The notes under the pieces are model-generated. The model was given only the letters and a program-made list of their open reading frames with translations. It was not told the DNA's origin and did no database searches. A DNA stretch of 64,000 bases from a bacterium (GTDB taxonomy: Bacteria; Armatimonadota; Fimbriimonadia; Fimbriimonadales; Fimbriimonadaceae): NCBI GenBank assembly GCA_027485645.1, contig JAIXQR010000007.1, forward strand, positions 310,001 to 374,000, written 5' to 3'. Positions within the stretch are counted from its first letter, which is position 1. Each line of letters opens with the position of its first letter. Shown one piece after another: positions 32,232 to 49,965 of the stretch. The position numbers and the translations under genes were made by a program.

Positions 32232-32242
32232 GATAGGCCCTA

Positions 32243-32274
32243 GCGGCCCTGCCATTTGGCAGGGCCGCTTTTTT
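32243..32274 (+). terminator. Rho-independent terminator after fusA
   Basis: An 11-bp perfect stem, GCGGCCCTGCC (32243-32253) and GGCAGGGCCGC (32258-32268), loop ATTT, then six T residues (32269-32274). Confidence 0.92.
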
Positions 32275-32342: not shown

Positions 32343-32771
32343 ATGATTGTTCAGAGACAGGCCCCTCGGGTCCCGCCAAATGCGCCGAGTTCAACCCCGC
32401 CCCCGCCGAGCCCAGCGCCAACCTTAGGTGATCGACTGTTTGGTGTCGCCTATGGAATATTCACGATCGGCCATGCTTCGGCGTGGCTTTTACTGTTCTG
32501 GAATTCGCCGGGTGGTATCAAAGTGTTGCAGCAGTTCGTTGCAGTATTGGTGATCGTTCTCTGCACGGCTGATCTTTGGTGGGTGGCTGTTGCAGCGTAT
32601 AGAGGAAAGCAACGTGCCTACGAACGTGCAGAACTCTTTTCATATCTTCATGCTTTTTCCCCGTTCATCGTCTTGCTGATTGTGAACTTACGTACTTTCC
32701 CGCTATTCCTAGGGGTTGTATTGCTGATGTTCGCGGCCGGTTACCGGCGAAGGCGCGGATCTTGGACGTGA
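32343..32771 (+). CDS. Small membrane protein, divergent member of family A
   Basis: Unrecognised family. A protein of 142 aa with a Pro-rich N-terminal tail (to about residue 27) and about four hydrophobic helices, ending in an Arg-rich RRRRGSW tail. The opening IVQRQ and the ending GSW resemble the two family A proteins at 32868 and 33917 (IVQRQQ...GRW), so I treat it as a divergent paralogue. The upstream sequence shares GGTAGCTTC with the later copies but not the full promoter module. It is the first gene of the membrane-protein island between fusA and tuf. Confidence 0.7.
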   Translation: MIVQRQAPRVPPNAPSSTPPPPSPAPTLGDRLFGVAYGIFTIGHASAWLLLFWNSPGGIKVLQQFVAVLVIVLCTADLWWVAVAAYRGKQRAYERAELFSYLHAFSPFIVLLIVNLRTFPLFLGVVLLMFAAGYRRRRGSWT

Positions 32772-32831
32772 CTTCGCTTAGCTTGTGAACTCAAGCAGCC
32801 TCTAGGGTCTGAGGTTTTTAGGACCTTAAGT

Positions 32832-32863
32832 GGGAAACTTGCTCTTGCTCGGTAGCTTCTAAC
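32832..32863 (+). promoter_or_regulatory. Repeated promoter module, copy 1
   Basis: GGGAAAC (32832-32838), 19 nt, TCTAAC (32858-32863), then 4 nt to the ATG at 32868. Two further copies share the identical heptamer, hexamer and spacing. The layout resembles an ECF-type promoter giving a leaderless or nearly leaderless mRNA; there is no Shine-Dalgarno. Confidence 0.6.
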
Positions 32864-32867
32864 CTGC

Positions 32868-33323
32868 ATGCCGATCATTGTTCAGCGTCAGCAAAGTGGC
32901 CCGACACCGCCACCAATCCAGGTGCCCGGTCAGCCATCTGTTCCGGTAGGGGACACGGTCTATGCGGTCGTTTTCGGGATCTTTGCCGGGGCTTTAGCGT
33001 TGGGTTCGCTTGGTGTCTCAGTTTGGCTTTGGAGCCCAAGCGTGATGAAAGATGCTGGGATGGGAGCCATTGGAATTCCGATCGTGTCTGGCATTTTGAT
33101 GGCCGTTTTTGTTGCTGCCTCTTTTGCTGCGATAAAACTCGTGCCGATGATGCTGAAAAGCGACTCTCACGGTTTCAGTGGCGCCGGGGTTTCGTGCTTA
33201 ATCCTTGTGGGATCGCCGATTGGTAGCTATGCTTTTTTGAGCTATGTTGCGATTGCGCTCGCGGTGCTTATCATCGTCCTAGGATTCGTGGGACTTTACC
33301 GCGGGATAAGAGGAAGATGGTGA
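32868..33323 (+). CDS. Small four-helix membrane protein, family A
   Basis: Unrecognised family. The protein has 151 aa: a Pro-rich N-terminal tail (MPIIVQRQQ... to about 28), about four hydrophobic segments (roughly 33-55, 65-90, 100-120 and 122-143) and a basic end RGIRGRW. It is about as long as, and alignable throughout with, the protein at 33917 (same VGDT-Y opening of TM1, FAGALA-GSLG, GRW end). It lies directly behind promoter copy 1 and is followed 41 bp later by a family B gene. Function unknown. Confidence 0.72.
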   Translation: MPIIVQRQQSGPTPPPIQVPGQPSVPVGDTVYAVVFGIFAGALALGSLGVSVWLWSPSVMKDAGMGAIGIPIVSGILMAVFVAASFAAIKLVPMMLKSDSHGFSGAGVSCLILVGSPIGSYAFLSYVAIALAVLIIVLGFVGLYRGIRGRW

Positions 33324-33364
33324 TTGCAGCGATGCCCGACGAAACTCAAGGAGACCAAGACTAA

Positions 33365-33799
33365 ATGGGACTTAAGATTTCAAAACACGACCCGTCGCAA
33401 CCGCCGCCGGTCATTGGTCCGAAGTCGTCCAACGTGGTTTTCGCGATCCTTTATGGGGTGATGTGCTTGGTAACGGCCGTTGCAGTTCTTGCGACTTTGT
33501 TCAACCAGACTCGAGAGGTGCAGACGGGAGGGCTCGGATCGGTCTTCAGGATGGCATTGATTCTGTTCGGCGTACCTATCACAAAGTTGTTGATCGCAGT
33601 GTTGTCGCTCCCGCTTTACCAGGGCAAACGATGGGCATACGAATGGGCATTCCTGACCCTCCTTGCCTCGCCGCTCTTTTTATTCCTCGGCGGCGCAGCC
33701 ACAACGCTCCCAGCGGCGCTTTTCTACTTTGTTGGCACGCTGAACCTTGCATTGGCATCCGCTTCGCTTGTTGTAAGTCCGCCGAAGCTGCGCCCTTAG
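33365..33799 (+). CDS. Small four-helix membrane protein, family B
   Basis: Unrecognised family. 144 aa: a hydrophilic N-terminus with the family signature KISKHDPSQPPPVIGPKSS, four hydrophobic helices and a short end VVSPPKL. The helix 1 signature is VMCLVT, with KRWAYEWAF between helices 2 and 3. Three paralogues follow at 34414, 34872 and 35457. The upstream stretch CAAGGAGACC supplies a Shine-Dalgarno (spacing about 8). It is paired with the family A gene at 32868. Confidence 0.72.
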   Translation: MGLKISKHDPSQPPPVIGPKSSNVVFAILYGVMCLVTAVAVLATLFNQTREVQTGGLGSVFRMALILFGVPITKLLIAVLSLPLYQGKRWAYEWAFLTLLASPLFLFLGGAATTLPAALFYFVGTLNLALASASLVVSPPKLRP

Positions 33800-33880
33800 G
33801 TATGGGCCGTTTCTGGTGCACGTAATAAAAGCAGCGACGGGTTTACAAAAAGGTGGTCCGAAGTTTTTGGGACTTTGACC

Positions 33881-33912
33881 GGGAAACTTGCTCTGGATCG
33901 GTAGCTTCTAAC
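33881..33912 (+). promoter_or_regulatory. Repeated promoter module, copy 2
   Basis: GGGAAAC (33881-33887), 19 nt, TCTAAC (33907-33912), then 4 nt to ATG 33917. The flanks are also alike (TTTTTGGGAC upstream, GGTAGCT before the hexamer), showing that this block was duplicated together with the family A gene. Confidence 0.6.
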
Positions 33913-33916
33913 CAGT

Positions 33917-34372
33917 ATGCCGATCATCGTTCACTGTCAGCAAACTGGACCGACTCCAGGGCCAGCAAAGACCCAGGCGCAACCTGCGGTCTGGGTCGGT
34001 GACACGATTTACGCACTTGTTTACACGGCTTTTGCCGGGGCACTAGCCGCCGGCTCGTTGGGTTGGCCGTTTTGGGTCCGAGACCACTCGCTTTTGAACG
34101 TCGCACAGAATGGAACGCTCGACGTGCCGTTTGCTTTTGGGCACTCGATCTTGCTTACCCTCGGCGCCACGATTGCGGTCGTGATGTTCGTGCCGAAAAT
34201 GCTAAGGGGTGACTCAAGCGCATTTAGCGAAGCAGGGGCATGGTGCTGGGTACCTCTTGTTTTGCCGTTGGAAATCTACATGCTCTTCGGCTACGAGGGC
34301 GTCGTTGTCTCGTGCATCGCACTGGTCCTTGGCATTCCAGCTCTACATCGCGGTGCAAAGGGAAGATGGTGA
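33917..34372 (+). CDS. Small four-helix membrane protein, family A (paralogue)
   Basis: A 151-aa paralogue of the protein at 32868: MPIIV-QQTGPTP opening, Pro-rich tail, VGDTIYALVYTAFAGALA in helix 1, four hydrophobic segments and HRGAKGRW at the end. It is preceded by promoter copy 2 and followed 41 bp later by a family B gene, the same spacing as the first A-B pair. This supports a tandem duplication of an A-B unit. Function unknown. Confidence 0.72.
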   Translation: MPIIVHCQQTGPTPGPAKTQAQPAVWVGDTIYALVYTAFAGALAAGSLGWPFWVRDHSLLNVAQNGTLDVPFAFGHSILLTLGATIAVVMFVPKMLRGDSSAFSEAGAWCWVPLVLPLEIYMLFGYEGVVVSCIALVLGIPALHRGAKGRW

Positions 34373-34413
34373 TTTCGATGACGAATACGCAATGCTTGGG
34401 CAGGTCAAGGTAA

Positions 34414-34845
34414 ATGGCACATCAGATTTCCAAGCACGATCCTTCCCAACCGCCTCCGGTTATCGGCCCGAAGTCGTCCAATGTGGTTTTCGCGGTCCTT
34501 TACGTGCTGATGTGCCTAGTGACAGACATCGCGGTTCTTTCGACGATATTTTTCCAAACGGCAGAAATGAAGTCGGGTGGCCTCGGAGTTGTAGGTTGGC
34601 TATTCTTTGTCACTCTTGGTGCCCTGGTGATCAAAGTGCTCATTGGCGTGTTGTCGGTTCCGCTGTACTACGGCAGACGCTGGGCTTATGACCTTGCATT
34701 TCTAACGCTGCTAGGCTCGCCGCTGTTTCTCCTTCTGGGTGGGCTGGCCACGACGCTACCGGCGGGAATTTTCTACTTTATCGCCACTCTGAACCTGGCT
34801 CTTGCGGTCACTTCGTTGGTGATCAGTCCGCCAAAACTCTCCTAG
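34414..34845 (+). CDS. Small four-helix membrane protein, family B (paralogue)
   Basis: A 143-aa paralogue of the protein at 33365, nearly identical in the first 25 residues (ISKHDPSQPPPVIGPKSSN) and in the helix 1 signature LMCLVT. It has four hydrophobic helices and ends VISPPKLS. It is the second member of the second A-B unit and is followed 26 bp later by another family B gene. Function unknown. Confidence 0.72.
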   Translation: MAHQISKHDPSQPPPVIGPKSSNVVFAVLYVLMCLVTDIAVLSTIFFQTAEMKSGGLGVVGWLFFVTLGALVIKVLIGVLSVPLYYGRRWAYDLAFLTLLGSPLFLLLGGLATTLPAGIFYFIATLNLALAVTSLVISPPKLS

Positions 34846-34871
34846 TCGAACTGGAATCCTTAGTACCGGAC

Positions 34872-35306
34872 ATGGCACATACAATCAAAAAACACGATCC
34901 TTCTCAACCTCCGCCGGTCGTCGCGCCGAGGTCGTCTTATTTGGCTTTTGCAATCATGTACGGAGTGATGTGCCTCGTGACGGGCGTTGCAAGTGCGGCG
35001 ACTTTGAGTAACCAGACGGAACAGACGAAGTCGGCAGGGCTCGGCGTGGTCTTCTGGATGGCAATTATTGTCTTCGGTTTGCACATTATCATGGTGTTGA
35101 TCGCCGCACTGTCGTTTCCACTTTACAAGGGAGAACGTTGGGCCTTCGAGTTTGCGTTTTTCACCCTCCTCGTTTCGCCGGTCTATCTCTTTTTGGGTGG
35201 CGCTGCTTCAACCCTCCCACCGAGCATTTTCTACGTGATCGGCACGCTCAACTTGGCGATGGCAGGTATCGCATTCATTATCAAGCCACCTGTCCTCAAA
35301 ATTTGA
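34872..35306 (+). CDS. Small four-helix membrane protein, family B (paralogue)
   Basis: A 144-aa paralogue with IKKHDPSQPPPVVAPRSS at the N-terminus, VMCLVT in helix 1, ERWAFEFAFF between helices 2 and 3, and PSIFYVIGTLNLA in the last helix. It has no family A partner directly upstream. It starts 26 bp after the previous stop, so it can share its transcript. Function unknown. Confidence 0.72.
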   Translation: MAHTIKKHDPSQPPPVVAPRSSYLAFAIMYGVMCLVTGVASAATLSNQTEQTKSAGLGVVFWMAIIVFGLHIIMVLIAALSFPLYKGERWAFEFAFFTLLVSPVYLFLGGAASTLPPSIFYVIGTLNLAMAGIAFIIKPPVLKI

Positions 35307-35383
35307 AGACAGGTCGGGGTTCAGCACTTTCTCGCGGCGAAATGATTTCGAACGGTTGGTCGCAGGTTTTTGGGACCGTATGC

Positions 35384-35415
35384 GGGAAACATGAAAAGAT
35401 CCCCTTTCCTCTAAC
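35384..35415 (+). promoter_or_regulatory. Repeated promoter module, copy 3
   Basis: GGGAAAC (35384-35390), 19 nt, TCTAAC (35410-35415), then 4 nt to the ATG at 35420. Unlike copies 1 and 2, the 19-nt spacer has diverged, while heptamer, hexamer and distances are unchanged. That pattern points to selection on the two boxes. Confidence 0.6.
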
Positions 35416-35419
35416 GAAC

Positions 35420-35452
35420 ATGCCGATCACAGATTTGGCAAGGACAAGTTAA
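35420..35452 (+). pseudogene. Relic start of a family A gene, or a 10-codon leader peptide
   Basis: ATG CCG ATC at 35420 repeats the family A opening (MPI) at the same distance from the promoter module, but after 10 codons (MPITDLARTS) the frame ends at TAA (35450-35452), 4 bp before the next family B gene. Most simply, an A gene was deleted here leaving its promoter and first codons; it could also act as a translated leader. Confidence 0.5.
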
Positions 35453-36010: not shown

Positions 36011-36098
36011 GAGGGGTAAACTGCACGATTGTCTAGACCCCTCCTGTGGGAAGGTTGAGACCGAAGTTGGGCGACGGGTCGCCCCCCTCCATCCCACA
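36011..36098 (+). promoter_or_regulatory. Structured tuf leader (three nested or adjacent hairpins)
   Basis: GAGGGGT (36011-36017) pairs with ACCCCTC (36037-36043). TGTGGG (36045-36050) can pair with CCCACA (36093-36098), and inside that arm GGGCGA (36069-36074) pairs with TCGCCC (36079-36084) around a CGGG loop. The structure ends 23 bp before the tuf start, so it would sit in the 5' untranslated region. A regulatory role is an inference. Confidence 0.45.
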
Positions 36099-49402: not shown

Positions 49403-49452
49403 GTTGAAGAAATTTGCCGGTTCTCGGGTCTAGAGTACGTGGAGCAGTTCTT

Positions 49453-49965
49453 ATGTCGGTAGTTACCCAGGCAGTGCATGCCGTATCCGGACTCTTTGCG
49501 AGGGCTAAGCGGTCTGAGGAGGTCGTCAGTGCGTTCTTGCAGAACGAGCGGCCGTGTATGTATCGGTTAGCCCTCAGCATTACCCAGCGGTCTGATCTGG
49601 CAGAGGACGCCGTTCAAGAAACTTTGATTCGATGTTGGCGATCAACCAAGAAGCTGACCCAGGTTAGCGATCTCAAGGCGTTCTGCCGGCAGGTGCTAGT
49701 GCGACGTGCGATCACGGTGCTTAAAGCTCACAGCTCAGCTGAGCTGCCGGAAGTTGAGGACGCAAAAGTGTTTGGTGAGCAGGTCGATGTTCGTCTGGTT
49801 TTGCAATCGCTTCCGGCCGATTCCCGCGCGATCCTCTCGCTTTCCTACTTTGAAGGGCTGTCCTACCAAGAGATTTCCGACACCCTGGGAATTCCTGCCG
49901 GAACCGTAGCCTCGCGGCTGAGTACCGCACGTGAACGATTTCGCGATGCTTGGGAGGCGAAATGA
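49453..49965 (+). CDS. ECF-type RNA polymerase sigma factor
   Basis: A small sigma-70 family factor of about 170 aa with only regions 2 and 4. Region 2 is in LALSITQRSDLAEDAVQETLIRCWRS; region 4 is LPADSRAILSLSYFEGLSYQEISDTLGIPAGTVASRL, ending ARERFR. ATG 49453 is preceded by GGAG at a good distance. It overlaps the next gene by 4 nt (ATGA), which in turn overlaps a third, so the three form one operon. Such factors usually answer envelope signals through a membrane anti-sigma factor. Confidence 0.9.
   Translation: MSVVTQAVHAVSGLFARAKRSEEVVSAFLQNERPCMYRLALSITQRSDLAEDAVQETLIRCWRSTKKLTQVSDLKAFCRQVLVRRAITVLKAHSSAELPEVEDAKVFGEQVDVRLVLQSLPADSRAILSLSYFEGLSYQEISDTLGIPAGTVASRLSTARERFRDAWEAK

Follow-up and report, generated by a model that had tools for sequence, protein, structure and literature searches.

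ECF sigma factors of group 4, such as SigH of M. tuberculosis, recognize the promoters that come closest to the module described here. SigH reads GGAACA-N17-GTT with an optimal spacer of 17 bp, and ECF factors are described as requiring near-consensus boxes and a rigid spacer, changes in either being poorly tolerated (PMC6411747). The second point of comparison is provided by leaderless genes. Those of Deinococcus and Actinobacteria carry a -10 element a few nucleotides ahead of the ATG and no Shine-Dalgarno (SD) sequence (PMC3160421, PMC12340547), with TANNNT about 12 bp ahead of the start (PMC3160421). A search combining the phylum name Armatimonadetes with 'leaderless' found nothing related in the literature text it reached.

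The module occurs in a 64,000-nt stretch of DNA (the window; JAIXQR010000007.1, 310,001 to 374,000, forward strand), and all coordinates below are positions in it unless a genome is named. The module resembles SigH and other group 4 promoters in its G/A-rich, GGAA-type -35, short -10, rigid spacing, free spacer sequence and low tolerance of box changes, but differs in having GGGAAAC rather than GGAAC as -35, TCTAAC rather than GTT as -10, an extra invariant upstream box, and neither a cognate sigma gene nor an autoregulated copy that could be found. With the leaderless genes of Deinococcus and Actinobacteria it shares the short distance from -10 to ATG and the missing SD, whereas its -10, TCTAAC, lies 2-3 nt nearer the ATG and goes with a highly conserved -35 and one more box upstream; the TANNNT type portrayed there seems to be frequent in the module's own genome too. 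The locus may give a tidy system in which to test a leaderless start under a promoter of non-housekeeping type, in a lineage where the literature reached had nothing related on leaderless genes. Its study also brought out the indication that leaderless-type starts look common in this lineage. Beyond that, the module is a peculiarity of a single duplicated gene block, and its reach is modest.

Anatomy and conservation of the module

The initial annotation had reported GGGAAAC and TCTAAC, separated by exactly 19 nt, at three places, each followed by 4 nt and ATG CCG ATC. A pattern scan of the window confirmed this: GGGAAAC-N19-TCTAAC is exact at 32832-32863, 33881-33912 and 35384-35415, in each case as part of an exact GGGAAAC-N19-TCTAAC-N4-ATGCCGATCA and with ATGCCGATC after the 4 nt, and no further match with 0-2 mismatches exists in the window. 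The observation is real and larger than reported, since there are a third box and a fourth copy. The third box, GTTTTTNGGAC, which the annotation lacked, stands exactly 7 nt 5' of GGGAAAC in all three window copies (Table 1). Counted from the A of the ATG, the register is GTTTTTNGGAC at -54..-44, 7 nt, GGGAAAC at -36..-30, 19 nt, TCTAAC at -10..-5, 4 nt, and ATGCCGATCA, and the proposed -35/-10 layout stands. With all three boxes required, the window has three matches, and 100 shuffles have none even when 3 mismatches are allowed; for the two boxes alone with up to 3 mismatches, the window shows no enrichment (8 found vs 14.7 expected).

The fourth module was found, among 20 genus genomes searched, in a metagenome-assembled genome (MAG) of a sister species (G014; contig CAMCWC010000023.1, isolate ME-09jul19-71, labelled Chthonomonas calidirosea by its own record). 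It lies between fusA and tuf, as in the window, and its three boxes, their spacings and the 4-nt distance to the ATG are identical. The four copies come from a single locus in two genomes that are close relatives. All 23 box positions are the same in every copy, vs 7 of the 37 other positions in -60..-1 (p 9e-11), or 12 of 37 if the near-duplicate copy 2 is dropped, and this bears out the claim of selection on boxes and spacing. In the flanks, 3/40 positions are invariant in -100..-61, 4/50 in +11..+60 and 9/10 in +1..+10; a C at -12, 5' of TCTAAC, is also invariant. The spacer of copy 3 is, as had been noted, almost wholly changed, keeping 5/19 bases relative to copy 1 and 6/19 relative to copy 2, which is chance level. 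Copies 1 and 2 are not independent, because 17 of their 19 spacer bases are common. Coding conservation across the module was rejected because the 19-nt spacer is free.

Table 1. Module boxes and neighbouring features (window positions)
Feature	Position	Strand	Basis
Upstream box GTTTTTNGGAC, copy 1 (-54..-44 from ATG)	32814..32824	+	pattern scan, conservation count
-35-like box GGGAAAC, copy 1	32832..32838	+	pattern scan
-10-like box TCTAAC, copy 1	32858..32863	+	pattern scan
Upstream box, copy 2	33863..33873	+	pattern scan
-35-like box GGGAAAC, copy 2	33881..33887	+	pattern scan
-10-like box TCTAAC, copy 2	33907..33912	+	pattern scan
Upstream box, copy 3	35366..35376	+	pattern scan
-35-like box GGGAAAC, copy 3	35384..35390	+	pattern scan
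-10-like box TCTAAC, copy 3	35410..35415	+	pattern scan
Strong fusA terminator-like hairpin, splits block from fusA operon	32242..32269	+	
Gene A0, divergent A-like protein without a module; TATCGT at -11 relative to ATG	32343..32771	+	
Gene A1, 151 aa small membrane protein, predicted leaderless start	32868..33323	+	
Gene B1, 144 aa small membrane protein, AAGGAG before ATG	33365..33799	+	
Gene A2, 151 aa	33917..34372	+	
Gene B2, 143 aa, 87% identical to G014 B	34414..34845	+	
Gene B3, 144 aa, 26 nt past B2, no module of its own	34872..35306	+	
10-codon ORF (MPITDLARTS), remnant or leader, ends 4 nt before B4 ATG	35420..35452	+	sequence
Gene B4, 148 aa	35457..35903	+	

A duplicated block of small membrane-protein genes

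Each module heads one transcription unit of lineage-specific small membrane proteins. The block begins with the diverged A0, which lacks a module, and continues as module-A1-B1, module-A2-B2-B3 and module-mini-ORF-B4; in copy 3, ATGCCGATC opens merely a 10-codon ORF, which the initial annotation had missed. A1 is 58% and A2 34% identical to the A protein of G014, and because A1 is nearest to G014 A but B2 is nearest to G014 B, the comparison suggests that the duplications are older than the species split and that G014 lost the stretch between. Fourfold sites differ by 41-71% in the compared A and B pairs if a truncated second B of G014 (58 and 76%) is not counted, and the codons are constrained, third positions being more different than positions 1+2. 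That second B-like frame (L101 6459 onward) has one in-frame TAA near its start, and an ATG further on could begin an ORF of 124 aa.

Relatives of A are found in 3 of 41 genomes (its own, G014 and, weakly, G011) and relatives of B in 2 of 61. Moreover, of 18 other genus genomes, 10 have the end of fusA less than 1.5 kb (about 40-500 nt) from tuf and neither an A nor a B gene in the gap; in the remaining 8, the end of fusA did not show in the 1.5-kb stretch inspected. Given so few relatives and the gap lacking A and B in those 10 genomes, the block looks like a lineage-specific insertion. Pfam gave nothing above cut-offs for seven proteins, and no match at E<=1 for A1. The predicted fold of B has four long helices (mean pLDDT 81.4); that of A is too low in confidence for use (mean pLDDT 49.7).

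Promoter class, candidate sigma factors and further targets

ECF promoters are characterized by a GGAA-type -35, a short -10 and rigid spacing, all of which the module has, with boxes and spacing invariant in 4/4 copies; the spacer from GGAAAC to CNTCTAAC, read from the sequences, is 17 bp. The ECF likeness proposed in the initial annotation holds in these features and remains a resemblance, and invariant boxes with a free spacer match ECF behaviour by analogy, short of proof of an ECF factor. A sigma-70-type -10, TANNNT, is absent from the corresponding -12/-13 position of all four modules, and sigma-70-type promoter prediction returned none directly 5' of A1, A2 or copy 3. Because the module -10 differs from TANNNT and sits 2-3 nt nearer the ATG, the comparison suggests that an alternative, ECF-like sigma factor reads it. 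The promoter type is not a common one in this genome, since its fragments TCTAA, CTAAC, GGAAA/C and GGGAA have no position-specific excess before first ATGs in a 298-kb sample.

It is common, though not obligatory, for an ECF promoter motif to occur also before the cognate sigma gene or other members of the regulon. No such site was found by the genome scans or at the sigma loci: sigma-70 region 2 has 47 matches in the own genome (G000) and G014 (23 and 24), and the module layout lies upstream at 0 of the 46 loci examined (G014:C4:69363 left out), two loose regular-expression matches having other spacings. An ECF-like sigma gene of 183 aa at 49414-49965, directly 3' of a run of ribosomal-protein genes, is no obvious partner, because 19 of 20 genus genomes, module-free ones included, have a relative of it (E 1e-8 or better), and because the match in G014 extends over no more than residues 1-84 of 170. 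The G014 counterpart of this gene may be broken.

Of the earlier interpretation, box selection and the -35/-10 layout were upheld, and the idea of a genome-wide promoter set was not. In its own genome, GGGAAAC-N19-TCTAAC has no exact match outside the block, and the result named beforehand as refuting, a pattern no commoner than chance outside the block, is what was obtained, with 38 near-matches (1-2 mismatches) vs 70 for a control. This control, the pattern read backwards, keeps base composition and not dinucleotides. With up to 2 mismatches the own genome yields 41 matches, 3 of them the modules, vs 70 in the control; with the ATG included, 20 genus genomes yield 22 (4 exact modules and 18 others) vs 31; spacers of 15-20 nt give 22 (4 modules) vs 107, and the upstream box combined with the -35 gives 11 (4 modules) vs 18. 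The three-box pattern found nothing beyond the four modules in 20 genus and 85 family genomes. Individual candidates were also set aside: a 2-mismatch pair (G000 C1:547104 and G014 C22:34126) lies, by eye, on the antisense strand of a conserved ORF, a G000 match followed by ATG (C1:272642) is inside a 445-aa ORF, and none of the other matches with spacers of 15-20 nt, read with their surroundings, has the upstream box. The regulon idea fails, and the module is seen at one locus only.

Leaderless-type starts and competing explanations

Leaderless genes are recognized by a -10 element about 5-13 nt before the ATG together with a missing SD, and the module-linked ATGs have both, no SD being present ahead of them; the internal gene B1 does have one (Table 1). 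Because the module heads each unit without an SD, the best reading of the sequence is a promoter starting at or adjoining the A of the ATG. In 298 kb sampled from the own genome, window included, 24 of 234 first ATGs are preceded by TANNNT, 14 of them with the motif at -12 and 10 at -13, where 0.8 and 0.9 (about 1.7 together) would be expected from 1234 internal ATGs; gene starts were set mechanically as the first ATG of long ORFs. A smaller sample, the window plus two neighbouring stretches, has TANNNT at -12 in 6 of 79. From this excess, leaderless-type starts look ordinary in this genome and lineage, at about one in ten first ATGs.

As to promoter activity, start site, sigma class and the role of the upstream box, we infer the following. 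The module is probably an ECF-like promoter particular to this locus, which tandem duplication has multiplied and whose start coincides with or adjoins the ATG. An alternative, ECF-like sigma factor would recognize a promoter made of three boxes, with GGGAAAC as its -35, C-N-TCTAAC as its -10 and GTTTTTNGGAC as an upstream site at constant distance, contacted by an activator or by alpha-CTD. Transcription would begin at the A of the ATG or no more than one or two nucleotides from it, and the first gene of each unit would be translated from a leaderless or nearly leaderless mRNA. Carried along in tandem duplications, the module would drive three adjacent operons (A1-B1, A2-B2-B3 and mini-ORF-B4), with one copy kept in the sister species. 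A bolder version, which is conceivable yet doubtful, has one alternative sigma factor, or a sigma factor with an activator, whose only target is essentially this locus and its three-box leaderless promoter; the 10-codon mini-ORF of copy 3, itself leaderless, would have lost its own gene by deletion and been retained to load ribosomes onto the gene that follows.

The main rival dispenses with an alternative sigma factor and supposes a leaderless promoter of the housekeeping sigma factor, aided by a locus-specific activator bound to GTTTTTNGGAC/GGGAAAC. Leaderless-type starts with a poor -35 are common in the genome and the upstream box shows no more variation than the two others, both as this explanation would have it; however, TANNNT is missing at -12/-13 in 4/4 copies and TCTAAC is displaced toward the ATG, and we regard it as unlikely. 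The boxes could, in another account, be an RNA element (attenuator or translational control) in a 5' leader transcribed from further upstream, as the sequence at the upstream box can be folded into a weak hairpin. Its covariation term is 0, though, and changes on both sides affect 2 of 15 pairs, in one sequence each and both in that hairpin; Rfam has no match in the modules, with BSnc120 at E 0.42 alone and outside them. Moreover, fixed spacing around a free 19-nt spacer fits DNA contacts, and no SD precedes the ATG. With the fold, covariation and Rfam results the RNA element was rejected as quite improbable. Least credible of all is that the boxes have no function and are leftover similarity from recent duplications or gene conversion. 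The near-identical spacers of copies 1 and 2 would agree with this, but copy 3 and the G014 copy have 5/19 spacer bases in common and 24/24 box bases (6+7+11), and the fourfold-site differences between gene copies are large, so that this explanation is highly improbable.

Beside the block, at 36031-36084, a leader that contains a strong hairpin, GTC...GACCGAAGT.GGGCGACGGGTCGCCC, is conserved just 5' of tuf (36122) in 13 of 20 genus genomes. No Rfam match was obtained there at E<=1, and of the 15 pairs found on folding the 13 copies, a single one has changed on both sides. It is possibly an undescribed tuf leader RNA.
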